From a virus, in IMG/VR virus record IMGVR_UViG_3300015371_000155, positions 1 to 25,748 of that record: DNA of 25,748 bases; one strand, written 5' to 3'. Positions 1 through 3,661 of the stretch are shown one piece after another (position 1 is the first letter of the stretch; each line of letters opens with the position of its first letter). Position numbers and translations under genes: made by a program. Below the pieces are notes generated by a model. That model was not told the DNA's origin. It worked only from the letters and a program-made list of their open reading frames with translations, and made no database searches.

Positions 1-469
1 AGACCTCGTATGGCGTGACGTCCTGGATCTGACGCGCCTCGTCGACCACGACACCGGCCGGCGACATGCCCTGCAGCTGCTGCTTCTTGATCTCGTCCTG
101 GACCTCGGCGAGGAGACTGGCCGGCATCACGGCGTTGGTGAAGTTGGCCGCCTTGACCGCGTCCGTTGCGATCTCGAACAGGAGATCCGAGTAGGCCTCC
201 GTGGTCTGGAACTCCTCGAAGGCGCCGACCGGCTTGACGAACTCGTCACCGCGTCGGATGCCGAAGGAGTGCCGCAGGATGTCGTCGAACGTCTCGAGGA
301 TCTCGCCGCCCTTGGCGTTGGGCTTCTGGATCCGTTCGATCTTCTTCGAGAAGCCGGCGTCCTCCGAGAACTCGAGCTTCAGGAGCTCCGCCTTCGTCAT
401 GTTGAAGTAGAAGTCCTTGGTGATCGGATTTCCGTCGATGTCCGCGTACGTCATGGTCTTCTTGAGCAT
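1..469 (-). CDS. Tail-assembly-chaperone-like protein (partial)
   Basis: The frame opens with ATG at 469 behind GAAAGAGA and runs off the left edge without a stop, giving 156 visible residues. The protein starts MLKKTMTYADIDGNP and contains FYFNMTKAELLKLEFS, later AYSDLLFEIATDA and FTNAVMP. From memory, this pattern (a short beta N-terminus, F-N-x-T-K-x-E-L, then a helical region ending in a FxNxxxP motif) is that of small proteins encoded before the tape measure in many siphoviruses and called tail assembly chaperones. Here it lies far from the tape measure, after the small-gene cassettes, and another chaperone-like gene already occupies the tail module. The visible C-terminus is rich in Q, E and K. 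It could instead be a structural protein of unknown role. No promoter element of the type seen at 787 is present in the 61 bases upstream; a terminator hairpin is. Confidence 0.5.
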   Translation of the reverse strand, partial: MLKKTMTYADIDGNPITKDFYFNMTKAELLKLEFSEDAGFSKKIERIQKPNAKGGEILETFDDILRHSFGIRRGDEFVKPVGAFEEFQTTEAYSDLLFEIATDAVKAANFTNAVMPASLLAEVQDEIKKQQLQGMSPAGVVVDEARQIQDVTPYEV

Positions 470-490: not shown

Positions 491-522
491 GGAAAACCTA
501 AAGCCCTTGTGGGGGCTCTAGG
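491..522 (-). terminator. Rho-independent terminator after the 76-aa gene
   Basis: On the minus strand, stem CCTAGAGCCC (522-513) pairs with GGGCTTTAGG (506-497), with one G-U pair and a six-base loop, and is followed by TTTTCC. It begins 9 bases after the stop codon of the 76-aa gene. The stem and loop are close copies of those at 2363, 2663 and 2972. Confidence 0.85.
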
Positions 523-530
523 CTTTGAGG

Positions 531-761
531 TCAGTTCTCGGTGGATTCCGAGTCTTCGAGGTCCGTGATGACGTGGATCTTCTCCTCGTCGGCCTTCCGG
601 ATGGAACGGGCCTTCTTGACGATGAAGCCGATCGAAGCGACCATGACGGCGCCGGCAATGGCACCGCCGATGATGGCAGCGGTCGAGTTCGGGGTCTCGA
701 GGTCCGTGTCCTGGGAGGGGACGATGGAGTCGACGTTGGTCTCGACGGGGGTCTCAGACAT
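531..761 (-). CDS. Small single-span membrane protein, 76 aa
   Basis: ATG at 761 follows CTGAAAGGAACCACC, a good ribosome site; an in-frame upstream extension to 944 would cross the promoter and overlap the preceding gene, so the short start is preferred. The protein has an acidic and T/S-rich N-terminus (residues 1-26), one hydrophobic helix of about 20 residues with G/A-rich packing (about 28-48, ending FIV), a KKARSIRK basic stop-transfer segment, and an acidic tail. The positive-inside rule places the C-terminus in the cytoplasm. It is a self-contained cassette with its own promoter (787-817) and terminator (491-522). I do not recognise the family. By analogy with other phage morons it may modify the host envelope or exclude other phages, but nothing in the sequence shows that directly. 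Confidence 0.8.
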   Translation of the reverse strand: MSETPVETNVDSIVPSQDTDLETPNSTAAIIGGAIAGAVMVASIGFIVKKARSIRKADEEKIHVITDLEDSESTEN

Positions 762-786
762 GGTGGTTCCTTTCAGAGGTGAATGA

Positions 787-817
787 GGTCTCATTATAGG
801 GGCGGTAATTTCTGCGA
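787..817 (-). promoter_or_regulatory. Cassette promoter P1 (TCGC-N15-TATAAT-GAGACC)
   Basis: Minus strand: TCGC (817-814), 15 bases, perfect TATAAT (798-793), then GAGACC. It sits between the stop codon at 821 and the start at 761. The same arrangement with identical spacing recurs at 2628, 2937, 3185 and 3629. No TTGACA-like hexamer lies at 16-18 bases from TATAAT. The predicted leader is about 25 bases. Confidence 0.8.
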
Positions 818-820
818 GCC

Positions 821-1606
821 CTAGTGCACCTTGTAGAAGTTCCTGATGGGCTCGACGCCGTAGTCGAACGTCAGACAGGGTCGTCCGTCCGTTGCGAGGT
901 TCGTGTCGAATGACATGTCGATGAGACCGCGATCGGATCGCCATCCCATCTCGTCCGAGTGCTCGGTGTGGGGGAGACCGACCTTGTCGTAGAAATCGCT
1001 GAGTGAGGCATAGCCGTAGTTGAGCACCATGTAGTTGGTGTCGTTCATGGCCTGCTTGAGCTCTTCCATGCTGCTGTCGAAATATCGACCGGTGAACGGC
1101 TCATAGCAGAGCACGTTCCCTCCCCCGGTGATGATGATCTGCTTGTTCTCGACAGGGTCGTTGCGGAGTCGCTCCTGGTTGACCTCAGAGCGGATCTGGC
1201 TCTCCTTGGTCTCGCCCAGCTTCTCGACGACCTTCTTCTGGTACTCGTCGGCCATCCGGTTCGCCGTCACAAACGCCGATGCCATCGCTGCCGTCCGCCT
1301 CGTACCGATCTGGTTTGCGAGTACGATGCTCGTCACGGTCGCAACAGCCAAAGTCGCGGGTGGGATATAGAGCTTCCATACCAGCAACACCTTCTCCTTG
1401 TTGGTGAGCTCGTGGCGTTCGTTCGCGCCGGCGTGGATGTTGACATTGTACTGCTCGCTGTCGATCATACGAGCAGCCTTCATCGACGCTTGACCCGTCA
1501 GTACGGCTGTCGTGAGGGTTCCTGCAACCCCGATCCCCGTGAGGATATGGGGGGAGTTGTCCGCGACGTACTTCTCAGCCAGCTTGGCGATTGTCCCCAA
1601 ATTCAT
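821..1606 (-). CDS. Phage membrane protein, 261 aa (DUF6353-like)
   Basis: ATG at 1606 follows AGGAGA with a six-base gap, which favours this start over an upstream ORF extension. The protein begins MNLGTIAKLAEKYVADNSP, followed by a hydrophobic segment (about 20-45) and a second one around KLYIPPATLAVATVTSIVLA (about 85-110). A soluble part follows with NQIGTRRTAAMASAF, a helical YQKKVVEKLGETKE stretch, IIITGGGNVLCYEPFTGRYF, and a C-terminal region with YASLSDFYDKVGLP. From memory this layout matches an actinophage family known as DUF6353, whose function is not established. The length is as I recall for the family. The gene overlaps the 84-aa gene upstream by 32 bases and is the last of a four-gene cluster. 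No hairpin separates it from promoter P1, which follows the stop by four bases. Confidence 0.85.
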   Translation of the reverse strand: MNLGTIAKLAEKYVADNSPHILTGIGVAGTLTTAVLTGQASMKAARMIDSEQYNVNIHAGANERHELTNKEKVLLVWKLYIPPATLAVATVTSIVLANQIGTRRTAAMASAFVTANRMADEYQKKVVEKLGETKESQIRSEVNQERLRNDPVENKQIIITGGGNVLCYEPFTGRYFDSSMEELKQAMNDTNYMVLNYGYASLSDFYDKVGLPHTEHSDEMGWRSDRGLIDMSFDTNLATDGRPCLTFDYGVEPIRNFYKVH

Positions 1607-1829
1607 TGCGCATCTCCTGATTGATCTCGGAGACGTAGTCAGCCCACGCCTCATCTTCTTTTGCCTTGCGAAGTGCTGCCTTACGCTCCAGGATCCGGAG
1701 AGCGCGAGCGTGGATTTCCTTCTTCCTCTTTCGCTCCTGAAAATGCCAGTGGAGTTCAGTGATAGCCCAGGCGGCAACGAGGCCGAAGAAGAATATGCCC
1801 CCACAGATCAAATTTCGGATCATGTCCAT
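1575..1829 (-). CDS. Small membrane protein, 84 aa
   Basis: ATG at 1829 follows AGAAGGGG with a seven-base spacer; a second ATG two codons later is possible. Residues 4-25 (RNLICGGIFFFGLVAAWAI) form one transmembrane helix, followed by a strongly basic, probably helical region (HFQERKRKKEIHARALRILE) and an acidic-mixed tail. This predicts an N-out, C-in topology. It lies between the 53-aa lysine-rich gene and the 261-aa membrane protein and overlaps the latter, suggesting coupled translation. No family is recognised. Confidence 0.75.
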   Translation of the reverse strand: MDMIRNLICGGIFFFGLVAAWAITELHWHFQERKRKKEIHARALRILERKAALRKAKEDEAWADYVSEINQEMRNEFGDNRQAG

Positions 1830-1846
1830 CGCTGAACCCCTTCTGG

Positions 1847-2008
1847 TTAGAGACCGAAAAGTTTGCCCAACTTCTTGAGTTGGTTTTCCGTATCTTCGTT
1901 CGCGCCGCTTCCGCCCTTGGCGGCCTTCTGGTTCTTGGCCTTGGAGTTCCGGCCGGCCTTGCTGATGTTCTTGTCGTCACCGTGCTTGGTGGGCTTGGGC
2001 TTGGCCAT
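1847..2008 (-). CDS. Lysine-rich small protein, 53 aa
   Basis: This frame is shorter than common ORF cut-offs. ATG at 2008 overlaps the stop of the helix-turn-helix gene by one base (TGATG), a typical translational-coupling junction, and the frame ends with TAA at 1849-1847. The protein starts MAKPKPTKHGDDKNISKAG, continues with KAKNQKAAKGG and ends LKKLGKLFGL. It is about one quarter lysine, low in complexity, and probably disordered apart from a short amphipathic C-terminal helix. Such basic peptides often bind nucleic acid, but that is only inference. Conservation of the exact start/stop overlap and consistent codon use support it as real. Confidence 0.7.
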   Translation of the reverse strand: MAKPKPTKHGDDKNISKAGRNSKAKNQKAAKGGSGANEDTENQLKKLGKLFGL

Positions 2009-2343
2009 CAGGCAACCACTTTCTGTTTGGCTCTCAGAGGAATATCGTTCCGGTGCAGTACTCGGTACACCGTCTTGTGGGTGATCTGGAACATCTCGGC
2101 GATATCGTACGGTCCGAACCTGGTCATGGTGTAGACATCGATGATCTGCCGTTCCATCTCGGCGCCCATCCAGACGTTCCCGCCCCGACCGATGCCGGGA
2201 TTCAGCGTGTTGGGATGCTTCTTCTTGCGCTCAAGAAGTCGCTGCTGCCAGTCGCTCCAAATATGCGGCTGCGGGTTTCCGTCATTGCACACGGTCCAGT
2301 CAAGCCCTACGGGCCGGCCATGTGCGTCGTAGCGTAGCGTCAC
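2008..2343 (-). CDS. Helix-turn-helix DNA-binding protein, 111 aa
   Basis: A GTG at 2343 preceded by GAAAGAGA is the likely start. Residues 64-105 (from ERQIIDVYTMTRFGPYDIA, through FQITHKTVYRVLHRNDIP) read as a helix-turn-helix of the resolvase/sigma-like kind: helix, turn around F-G-P-Y-D-I-A, recognition helix THKTVYRVLHR. The N-terminal 60 residues resemble no domain I know; they contain LDWTVCNDG and WQQRLLERKKKHP. It heads a four-gene cluster that reads down to 821. No cassette-type promoter precedes it; a terminator hairpin (2363-2391) lies 20 bases upstream, so expression may rely on read-through or an unseen promoter. It is a candidate regulator of the nearby repeated promoters, but this is inference. 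Confidence 0.75.
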   Translation of the reverse strand: MTLRYDAHGRPVGLDWTVCNDGNPQPHIWSDWQQRLLERKKKHPNTLNPGIGRGGNVWMGAEMERQIIDVYTMTRFGPYDIAEMFQITHKTVYRVLHRNDIPLRAKQKVVA

Positions 2344-2362
2344 AGGGGTCTCTTTCGAAATG

Positions 2363-2391
2363 AAAAACCTAAACCCCGGGATGGGGTTAGG
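2363..2391 (-). terminator. Rho-independent terminator after the 68-aa gene
   Basis: Minus strand CCTAACCCC (2391-2383) pairs with GGGGTTTAGG (2377-2368) with one bulged base, followed by TTTTT (2367-2363). It lies nine bases after the stop at 2400 and is a sequence relative of the hairpins at 491, 2663 and 2972. Confidence 0.85.
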
Positions 2392-2399
2392 CTTTGAGG

Positions 2400-2606
2400 T
2401 CAGTTGTTCTTCTCGGCGAACGCTTCGGGCAGGTAGTACTCGTCGAGGTCGATGTCCTTCGAGATGAGGAACTTGTCGAACTCCTTTCGGTTGCGCTGCT
2501 GGAGGGCGATCGCTGCGATAGCGACGGCACCTGCAACATACGCAGCCTTGTTGGAGGCGATGTGGTTCTTCACCTTCGAGGGGATGGCCTTGAGGGTGTT
2601 CTGCAT
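2400..2606 (-). CDS. Small single-span membrane protein, 68 aa
   Basis: ATG at 2606 follows CTGAAAGGAAACCAATC. A basic amphipathic N-terminus (MQNTLKAIPSKVKNHIASNK) precedes one short hydrophobic helix (YVAGAVAIAAIAL, about 23-35), a basic QQRNRKEFDK patch, and an acidic C-terminus ending EAFAEKNN. It has its own promoter (2628-2660) and terminator (2363-2391). I do not recognise the family. The design resembles the other cassette proteins, although they share little sequence. Confidence 0.78.
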   Translation of the reverse strand: MQNTLKAIPSKVKNHIASNKAAYVAGAVAIAAIALQQRNRKEFDKFLISKDIDLDEYYLPEAFAEKNN

Positions 2607-2627
2607 GATTGGTTTCCTTTCAGATTA

Positions 2628-2660
2628 GGGGTCTCATTATAGGGCCCGTTTTTTCTGCGA
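2628..2660 (-). promoter_or_regulatory. Cassette promoter P2
   Basis: Minus strand TCGC (2660-2657), 15 bases including a run of A, TATAAT (2641-2636), GAGACCCC. It matches P1 and P3-P5 with no spacing change. It directly follows the terminator hairpin of the upstream cassette. Confidence 0.85.
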
Positions 2661-2662
2661 GG

Positions 2663-2690
2663 AAAACCTAAATCCCTTGTGGGGATTAGG
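2663..2690 (-). terminator. Rho-independent terminator after the 72-aa gene
   Basis: Minus strand CCTAATCCC (2690-2682) pairs with GGGATTTAGG (2676-2667) with one bulge, followed by TTTT (2666-2663). It lies twelve bases after the stop codon and a few bases before promoter P2. Confidence 0.85.
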
Positions 2691-2701
2691 CTTTGGATCT
2701 A

Positions 2702-2920
2702 CTAGTGCTTCTTCACGGTTTCGACGGTCACTTGACGCAAAGTGTCGAGAACGATTGTGCTGCCGATGATGACCACAGCTCCGATGACAGCCTTCTTGCC
2801 GACTTCGGTGATGATGGGTACGTAGTCGGCGAGAGTCTTGTTCTCGGTCTGGGCCTCTTCGGTCGGCTTCTTGTTCTTGACGAGCTTCGTCGTGGTTTGG
2901 ACGGAAAGTCGCTTGAACAT
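2702..2920 (-). CDS. Small single-span membrane protein, 72 aa
   Basis: ATG at 2920 follows GAAAGGTATATTC. The N-terminal half is polar and basic (MFKRLSVQTTTKLVKNKK, then TEEAQTENK). A hydrophobic helix at about 42-60 (KKAVIGAVVIIGSTIVLDTL) is followed by a short polar tail ending VKKH. It begins MFKR like the 95-aa cassette protein at 3611. The gene has its own promoter (2937-2969) and terminator (2663-2690). No known family is recognised; function unknown. Confidence 0.78.
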   Translation of the reverse strand: MFKRLSVQTTTKLVKNKKPTEEAQTENKTLADYVPIITEVGKKAVIGAVVIIGSTIVLDTLRQVTVETVKKH

Positions 2921-2936
2921 GAATATACCTTTCGTA

Positions 2937-2969
2937 GGGGTCTCATTATAGGCCCAGTAAATTTTGCGA
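2937..2969 (-). promoter_or_regulatory. Cassette promoter P3
   Basis: Minus strand TCGC (2969-2966), 15 bases, TATAAT (2950-2945), GAGACCCC. The TCGC block abuts the end of the upstream terminator (stem ends at 2972), so terminator and promoter form one compact junction. Confidence 0.85.
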
Positions 2970-2971
2970 AA

Positions 2972-2996
2972 CCTAAACCCCTTGTGGGGGTTTAGG
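2972..2996 (-). terminator. Rho-independent terminator after the 54-aa gene
   Basis: A perfect 10-bp stem: minus strand CCTAAACCCC (2996-2987) pairs with GGGGTTTAGG (2981-2972) around a five-base loop, followed by TTTCGC. The T run is short because it merges with promoter P3. Confidence 0.8.
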
Positions 2997-3003
2997 CGTG
3001 AGG

Positions 3004-3168
3004 TCAGAGCAGGGTCTCGTTGCGCATCCGGTTGAGCTTCTCGTTCTGCTCGGTACGCATCGCCTTGTACTTCTTGTACTCCAGTTTGGTCACCACAACG
3101 TGGTAGCCATACCAGGCCAGGAAGCCGATGACGGTGAGTGCGAGCAGGATCAGCAGCCAGTTTCGCAT
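3004..3168 (-). CDS. Small single-span membrane protein, 54 aa
   Basis: ATG at 3168 follows GAAAGGATTCATT. A longer in-frame start at 3252 would run through promoter P4 and is rejected. The protein starts MRNWLLILLALTVIGFLAWY, an uncleaved N-terminal membrane anchor or signal-like helix (about residues 4-27), followed by a basic, probably helical cytoplasmic tail (LEYKKYKAMRTEQNEKLNRM). It is below common ORF-length limits with this start. It has its own promoter (3185-3217) and terminator (2972-2996). The shape recalls phage lysis or spanin-like small proteins and superinfection-exclusion peptides, but no motif decides between them. Confidence 0.75.
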   Translation of the reverse strand: MRNWLLILLALTVIGFLAWYGYHVVVTKLEYKKYKAMRTEQNEKLNRMRNETLL

Positions 3169-3184
3169 AATGAATCCTTTCGTA

Positions 3185-3217
3185 GGGGTCTCATTATAGG
3201 CGTTGTGAAACTTGCGA
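3185..3217 (-). promoter_or_regulatory. Cassette promoter P4
   Basis: Minus strand TCGC (3217-3214), 15 bases, TATAAT (3198-3193), GAGACCCC, then TACGAAAGGA leading into the 54-aa gene. It has the same spacing as the other four copies. Confidence 0.85.
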
Positions 3218-3232
3218 CTGAAAATCCCACCC

Positions 3233-3253
3233 GGGCAATTTTCAAAAAACAAA
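3233..3253 (+). repeat. Short inverted-copy element
   Basis: The plus-strand stretch GGGCAATTTTCAAAAAACAA recurs with one mismatch on the minus strand at 25730-25711, just upstream of the small terminase gene. This copy lies between terminator T5 and promoter P4 in otherwise empty sequence (3218-3260). Its role is unknown. Confidence 0.4.
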
Positions 3254-3260
3254 GGCAGAG

Positions 3261-3297
3261 AAAAACTGAAAGACCTGTATTTCTACAGGCCTCTCAG
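3261..3297 (-). terminator. Strong rho-independent terminator after the 95-aa gene
   Basis: Minus strand stem CTGAGAGGCCTGTA (3297-3284) pairs with TACAGGTCTTTCAG (3279-3266), 14 bp with two G-U pairs, closed by a GAAA tetraloop and followed by TTTTT (3265-3261). Unlike the other cassette terminators it is not of the CCTAAA family. Confidence 0.92.
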
Positions 3298-3323
3298 CGG
3301 GATTCCTTCTGTGGGGTCGTGGT

Positions 3324-3611
3324 TCAGCGAGCTTTGAGCACGAAGCCGATCGCCTTGGACGCGACGACGCGCGTGTTCTCGGAGGCGAGGATGGCAACGA
3401 TGCCAGCCAGGTTTGCCGCGACGACGAGCTTCTCGCCATTGCTCGCACGCTTGGGCATGGTGTTCTGCTTCAGCGTGAGGAGCTTGACGAGATGTTCGTT
3501 CAGCGGGGCGTACTGGGGGGAATCGTTGTCCAGTCCTTCCATCCGGGTGATCACGTTGTCGATCGCGGAGTCGAGGCGGGGGTCAACGTACTCGGTGTTA
3601 CGCTTGAACAT
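3324..3611 (-). CDS. Small membrane-associated protein, 95 aa
   Basis: ATG at 3611 follows TTAGGAG; the start at 3638 would overlap promoter P5 and is rejected. The N-terminal 60 residues are polar and helical (MFKRNTEYVDPRLDSAIDNV, then LNEHLVKLLTLKQNTMPKRA). A moderately hydrophobic segment follows (KLVVAANLAGIVAILA, about 63-80), then a second weak one near ASKAIGFVLKAR at the C-terminus. It is the first cassette downstream of the holin and has its own promoter (3629-3661) and strong terminator (3261-3297). No family is recognised. Confidence 0.78.
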   Translation of the reverse strand: MFKRNTEYVDPRLDSAIDNVITRMEGLDNDSPQYAPLNEHLVKLLTLKQNTMPKRASNGEKLVVAANLAGIVAILASENTRVVASKAIGFVLKAR

Positions 3612-3628
3612 AATGTCTCCTAACATAG

Positions 3629-3661
3629 GGGGTCTCATTATAGGAGAAGTTTTTCTCGCGA
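3629..3661 (-). promoter_or_regulatory. Cassette promoter P5
   Basis: Minus strand TCGC (3661-3658), 15 bases, TATAAT (3642-3637), GAGACCCC. It starts four bases after the holin stop codon, so it marks the boundary between the late operon and the cassette array. No terminator hairpin is visible between the holin stop and this promoter. Confidence 0.85.

Follow-up and report, generated by a model that had tools for sequence, protein, structure and literature searches.

A proposed exchangeable array of small genes with a lineage-specific, putative promoter box in a viral contig and its phage relatives

The viral contig record IMGVR_UViG_3300015371_000155 (25,748 bases, analysed over its whole length and called the window below) carries on its minus strand an array of small genes at positions 531-3661, five of which lie between a repeated 31-nucleotide (nt) box and a terminator-like hairpin. 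We suggest, with a probability of roughly 60%, that these genes form small, exchangeable transcription units sharing a lineage-specific promoter, which is most likely cognate to the phage's own two-barrel RNA polymerase. The window is apparently a genome fragment ending before the polymerase gene.

The sequence CCTATAATGAGACC occurs in the window in exactly five copies, all on the minus strand (787-800, 2630-2643, 2939-2952, 3187-3200 and 3631-3644). When up to three mismatches are allowed, 6 sites are found against 1.05 expected, a number reached by none of the 100 shuffles. The repeat extends past this core, since TCGC[AG] is fixed 19 nt upstream of TATAAT and is accompanied by an internal AC, so that the near-identical boxes (n = 5, 31 nt in total) can be written as TCGC[AG]-N6-AC-N5-CTATAATGAGACC. 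They occupy positions 3631..3661 (box 1, TCGCGAGAAAAACTTCTCCTATAATGAGACC), 3187..3217 (box 2), 2939..2969 (box 3), 2630..2660 (box 4) and 787..817 (box 5), 5' of the genes of 95, 54, 72, 68 and 76 amino acids (aa), respectively. A preliminary description of this DNA had proposed a nearly identical promoter element before each of five such genes; both the element, with its exact copies on one strand, and the gene lengths proved correct, each gene starting shortly 3' of a box.

All five hairpins, located on the same strand as the boxes, fold much more stably than shuffled sequences (z from -3.5 to -6.3), and four of them share CCTAAANCCC: those at 2972..2996 (z=-5.1), 2668..2692 (z=-3.5), 2364..2393 (z=-4.5) and 493..526 (z=-6.3). 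The fifth, at 3265..3298 (z=-4.8) and followed by a U-run, is unrelated to them in sequence. Terminators adjoin the promoter that follows: the U-run of a hairpin continues into the TCGCA of the next box; for example, the UUU tail of the hairpin at 2972..2996 overlaps the TCGCA of box 3. Family-wide, a terminator-like hairpin lies upstream of the box in 41% of cases vs 8% at random places, and T-runs of at least four in 40% vs 2%. The idea of a terminator after each gene is supported by the stability and common family of these structures, but two of them stand just upstream of promoterless genes, namely ~25 nt before a box-less GTG start at 2343 (hairpin 2364..2393) and 24 nt before a box-less ATG at 469 (hairpin 493..526). 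These two are not complete stops unless the genes behind them are served otherwise, which implies read-through or a further promoter for the genes starting at 2343 and 469. Gene 36 of the Streptomyces phage Maya (L130:27764) likewise starts behind a terminator-like hairpin without a box.

The cassette unit consists of the box, a short leader, a Shine-Dalgarno sequence, the gene and the hairpin, and it is this anatomy, together with the tRNA-type genes immediately behind the box in three relatives, that suggests independent transcription of the cassettes.

In other phages, the box has the form TCGCA-N6-ACA-N4-CTATAATGAGA, with a fixed register that is identical in 11 phages from at least seven host genera and two phyla. 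The exact core pattern was detected in at least 120 stretches of viral contigs, and box copies in viral contigs number 460, with a median spacing of 418 nt and a single orientation within each of the 95 multi-box loci (95/95). A and T predominate in the spacer of 216-229 distinct copies, whose leader, CCCTACGAAAGGAA, contains the ribosome site; the position of the Shine-Dalgarno sequence varies while the box is rigid. The records obtained in the box search belong to phages of Arthrobacter (95), Gordonia (55), Streptomyces (54), Curtobacterium (7), Rhodococcus (4) and Microbacterium (4), plus oral phages. A long array is present in the Arthrobacter phage Qui (113 kb; L140:37645-47847), where at least 13 boxes occur among small membrane genes. 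Several candidates were rejected: matches in Proteus and Salmonella lie inside helicase genes and were taken as chance, as was the single variant box of contig G072 (41 kb), which has neither the lineage polymerase nor its terminase, and no site of the phiC31-type early promoters matches the box.

Two variants keep the register: TTTTACA-N4-CTATAGT in Lactococcus phage 1706 (10 forward and 0 reverse copies, none expected) and CGCG-N6-xCA-N4-xCTTTATG in Faecalibacterium phage Oengus (CTTTATG, 11 forward vs 0.4 expected). The -10 block of the Faecalibacterium box is CTTTAT, in which T replaces the -11 adenine, a base that host sigma requires and that is retained in actinophages and Lactococcus phages. 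A -35 hexamer at 16-18 nt is absent, since at least four of the six TTGACA positions match in 4% of boxes vs 10% at control offsets. Because the -35 element is lacking, and because the Faecalibacterium clade lost the -11 adenine and still kept the register, we favour a phage factor over host sigma as the reader of the box. In addition, a transfer RNA (tRNA) in Rhodococcus phage Pepy6 and a tRNA gene call in Oengus start ~3-5 nt after the -10 block and end in U-rich tails, and a tRNA-like sequence in saliva phage D_HF5_2C has the same position and tail (seen by eye, with no ARAGORN call). These genes lie directly 3' of the box at L136:16206-16280, L142:2935-3006 and L135:27880-27958. Such starts fit transcription beginning at the usual distance from the box and speak against a translation element.

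The candidate for the phage factor is a protein of ~900 aa with an invariant DFDGD motif, assigned to PHROG_4291 ("RNA-dependent RNA polymerase") and predicted to be a two-barrel enzyme. Three helix-turn-helix (HTH) segments, two N-terminal and one C-terminal, are seen in five homologues at 39-57% identity. A tblastn search with this polymerase gave the same number of records per genus as the search with the box, and in addition 13 records from Lactococcus and 2 from Faecalibacterium. The polymerase is encoded in all 20 box contigs of at least 40 kb in the actinophage set (20/20), and, conversely, all 17 polymerase contigs have 2-8 boxes (17/17), the reversed-pattern control giving 0. A search of viral contigs with the Lactococcus- and Faecalibacterium-type variants as bait revealed three further large contigs with several boxes (51, 59 and 63 kb), each encoding a polymerase homologue at 44-49% identity. 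Annotations of this protein are diverse. Many phage records name it "helix-turn-helix DNA binding domain protein" (L131:40648-43377; L133:20513-23173; DFDGD present), in Siphovirus contig89 it is called "tail fiber protein", and the genome-end gene of Pepy6 is annotated as RNA-dependent RNA polymerase, similar to gp75 of phage 1706, a structural protein. Separately, tags of the HYG type (HYGVKGMKWG) occur in head-region proteins of the window (20357, 22947 and 22497, minus strand), and a related, possibly capsid-targeting tag, HYGVLRRSGRYPWGSG, lies at the polymerase N-terminus (L131:40717); as a sign of polymerase packaging the tag was too weak and was not used.

We suppose that the locus is composed of mono- or oligocistronic units, in each of which the 31-nt box and a short leader with a Shine-Dalgarno sequence are followed by a single small gene, usually for a membrane protein, and by a hairpin with a U-run that adjoins the next box. 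The single-polypeptide polymerase, with its three conserved HTH segments, would recognise TCGCA and ACA upstream and TATAAT-GAGA at the start site, with no need for a host -35 element. A bolder version, which we regard as possible but on balance doubtful, makes the two a sigma-independent, self-sufficient pair: the single-chain polymerase, with HTH modules of its own for promoter reading, would be delivered with the virion and would fire first at the boxes, the membrane proteins and tRNAs would condition the cell, and the cassette junctions would serve as exchange points. Delivery with the virion is proposed because the homologues in phages 1706 and Poco6 are annotated as "structural protein".

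Several observations weigh against assigning the box to this polymerase. The box-bearing phages form one lineage that also shares the terminase, capsid, primase-polymerase and other genes; therefore co-occurrence cannot single out the polymerase and could result from descent alone. Decoupling was attempted through the terminase, and all of its close relatives also fell into the polymerase lineage. AlphaFold gave only a weak model of this enzyme (predicted template modelling score 0.40), and the fold search with that model gave no significant match, most of the top ones being RNA polymerase large subunits; the polymerase profile retrieved only an HTH fragment from PDB, and the match to YonO, the polymerase of Bacillus phage SPbeta, covers just 20 columns, so that a link between the two is only suggested. 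Moreover, the connection between box and polymerase rests on relatives of the window, itself a truncated contig that stops before the polymerase gene. The -10 consensus of host sigma-A, too, reads TATAAT, and the two hairpins preceding promoterless genes mean that termination may be partial.

The sequence TATAAT opens the way to two readings based on host sigma-A polymerase. According to the one that deserves more attention, which we nevertheless consider rather unlikely, this enzyme reads the box with the aid of a phage activator bound to TCGCA-N6-ACA in place of the -35 element, and the phage's own enzyme transcribes other genes. This reading agrees with the fact that TATAAT is perfect in most clades and that the start lies at a distance usual for sigma-A promoters; an activator could sit on the conserved block further upstream, and the lineage has other conserved genes lacking an assigned function. 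However, the Faecalibacterium-clade boxes (CTTTAT, T at -11) are poor sigma-A -10 elements and nonetheless keep the register, and the other conserved array-side proteins that were checked (part of the core genes) have no recognised DNA-binding domain. The simpler reading, that the boxes are plain strong host promoters, constitutive or early, which were copied along with moron-like genes, has the same TATAAT in its favour as well as the view of the Vardy authors, who took the motif for a sigma-70 -10 element (PMC9671010). We find it improbable, given the missing -35 at 16-18 nt and the conservation from Lactococcus to Streptomyces hosts of TCGCA, ACA and GAGA, which sigma-A does not need, while the box is restricted to one phage lineage and has no counterpart in phiC31.

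The repeat might also serve mainly in recombination or translation start and not as a promoter, as one could conclude from cassette junctions falling within the repeated ends and from the Mossy paper, where it is tied to rearrangements and to a predicted translational start site (PMC11008172). Nevertheless, the box directly precedes tRNA-type genes, which need no ribosome site, and its rigidity is opposed to the variable Shine-Dalgarno position; this explanation appears to us the least probable of all. We retain the phage polymerase as the preferred reader of the box.

The exchange of cassettes is best seen in the Rimavirus phages Maya and Soshi (Streptomyces), which are 93-97% identical in this region apart from cassette differences. 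Soshi exactly lacks one unit of Maya (promoter plus gene 35), the junction falling within the GACCCC...GGGGTTTGGGTTT hairpin common to both flanking terminators; between terminator and promoter repeats, Soshi has a further gene of 306 bp, preceded by a box of its own. Each difference may be a gain or a loss. We propose that the repeated terminator/promoter ends provide homology for the gain and loss of cassettes, in which case genes would turn over while the ends persist. Modular exchange between conserved ends, as anticipated in the preliminary description, is therefore seen in relatives; a search for close relatives of the window through DUF6353 gave none in viral contigs, so that exchange was tested in other phages and the window's own cassettes stand outside the comparison. 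Morons of lambdoid phages are genes that bring a promoter and a terminator with them, are found between given neighbours in some related phages and are missing there in others, and in the strict sense are expressed from a repressed prophage. The cassettes are similar to them in having both elements (here as sequence features) and in the presence/absence between Maya and Soshi, and differ in forming a tandem array on one shared lineage-specific box.

The products of the cassettes were assessed for membrane segments by hydropathy only (19-residue window, cut-off 1.6). The 54-aa (3004..3168, segment N-terminal), 72-aa (2702..2920) and 76-aa (531..761) products of cassettes 2, 3 and 5 each have one segment above the cut-off, but the hydrophobic segments of the 95-aa (3324..3611; 1.56) and 68-aa (2400..2606; 1.48) products of cassettes 1 and 4 are marginal, so a segment in every product, as first described, is clear for three of the five. 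Family-wide, ~55% of the box-driven genes exceed the cut-off, and their open reading frames are short (median 76 aa; 97.5% do not exceed 120 aa). In four annotated genomes, membrane segments occur in 16 of 27 box-driven small genes vs 21 of 99 other small genes (p=2.6e-4). This enrichment is consistent with the proposed action of the products on the envelope, but many of them are without such a segment, and some units are tRNAs.

The 95-aa gene belongs to PHROG_5818 (phrog_5818 E=4.6e-18), has relatives in 119 phage records and represents the conserved first ("anchor") cassette of the whole lineage. The 72-aa and 68-aa products match phrog_6618 (E=3e-4) and phrog_12653 (E=3e-10), respectively, and no relative of the 68-, 72- or 76-aa gene was detected among 50,697 phage records. 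For all five products, Pfam, PHROG and PADLOC gave unknown phage families only; the PADLOC match of the 76-aa product to PDC-M09A (E=8e-4) was discounted since it covers little beyond the membrane segment.

The array is known in kind, and the box, which is lineage-wide, was previously described as a 43-50 bp motif array in Gordonia cluster DJ phages Vardy (PMC9671010), Conley (PMC10868162) and Mossy (PMC11008172). Scanned with one and the same matrix, the window shows 5 copies and Vardy 7 strong ones, and the descriptions agree in the mid-genome intergenic site, the nearby terminators and transmembrane genes, and the tie to rearrangements. There it is regarded as a motif of a single cluster, either a sigma-70 -10 element or a translation start, whereas the cross-phylum TCGCA/ACA register, its variants and the association with the polymerase are added here and were not found in the literature searched (open-access papers only). 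Arrays of small membrane-protein genes are also known in Arthrobacter AM/AU, Rhodococcus Pepy6/Poco6 and Gordonia DJ phages (PMC5513430, PMC13313380); they share the lineage, the gene type and the place downstream of tail genes, and regulatory elements are not mentioned there. Promoter motifs of their own are also known for the two-barrel RNA polymerases, virion and non-virion, of Thermus phage P23-45, which were studied by chromatin immunoprecipitation sequencing (ChIP-seq) and start-site mapping (PMC10770324). This case offers a parallel as a single-chain two-barrel polymerase with a lineage-specific motif inferred partly by motif/polymerase co-occurrence, although polymerase and motif are different and our data come from sequence comparison. 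YonO, another single-chain phage polymerase (QDE-1/YonO type, DxDGD site), differs, apart from the short sequence match, in transcribing one late operon, and its promoter sequence was reported as unknown (PMC5467207).

If the proposed reading is true, it predicts the promoter used by a whole class of single-chain two-barrel phage polymerases, present in ~250 phage records and ~450 viral contig stretches, a class to which YonO, with its promoter reported unknown, is related. Sigma-free promoter reading would become directly testable, and Streptomyces and Lactococcus could be provided with a compact promoter/polymerase pair for orthogonal transcription. The box together with the terminator would also be a search handle for hundreds of uncharacterised small phage membrane proteins, which turn over like host-interaction genes.

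As for the surroundings of the array, the gene order on the minus strand of the window is HNH, lysin, terminase, portal, capsid, tail genes, tape measure and small genes. The array comes after the tail genes, with the primase side beyond the window end; in relatives of the lineage its location is intergenic, between the tail genes and primase/polymerase. The five cassettes, originally described as one array, agree with that description in boxes, gene lengths and hairpins but are not contiguous, since four box-less genes (from 2343 down to 821) separate cassettes 4 and 5. These minus-strand genes encode products of 111 aa (2008-2343, GTG start at 2343, HTH-like owing to a weak match at the C-terminus), 53 aa (1847-2008), 84 aa (1575-1829, a membrane protein) and 261 aa (821-1606, DUF6353, E=2e-79). 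Behind cassette 5, also on the minus strand and with no box upstream, lies a gene of the tail assembly chaperone family Phage_TAC_17 (2..469; PF23803, E=3e-33), cut by the window end. The membrane-associated DUF6353 family (window 821-1606; L131:28307-29209) is kept inside or beside the array throughout the lineage.

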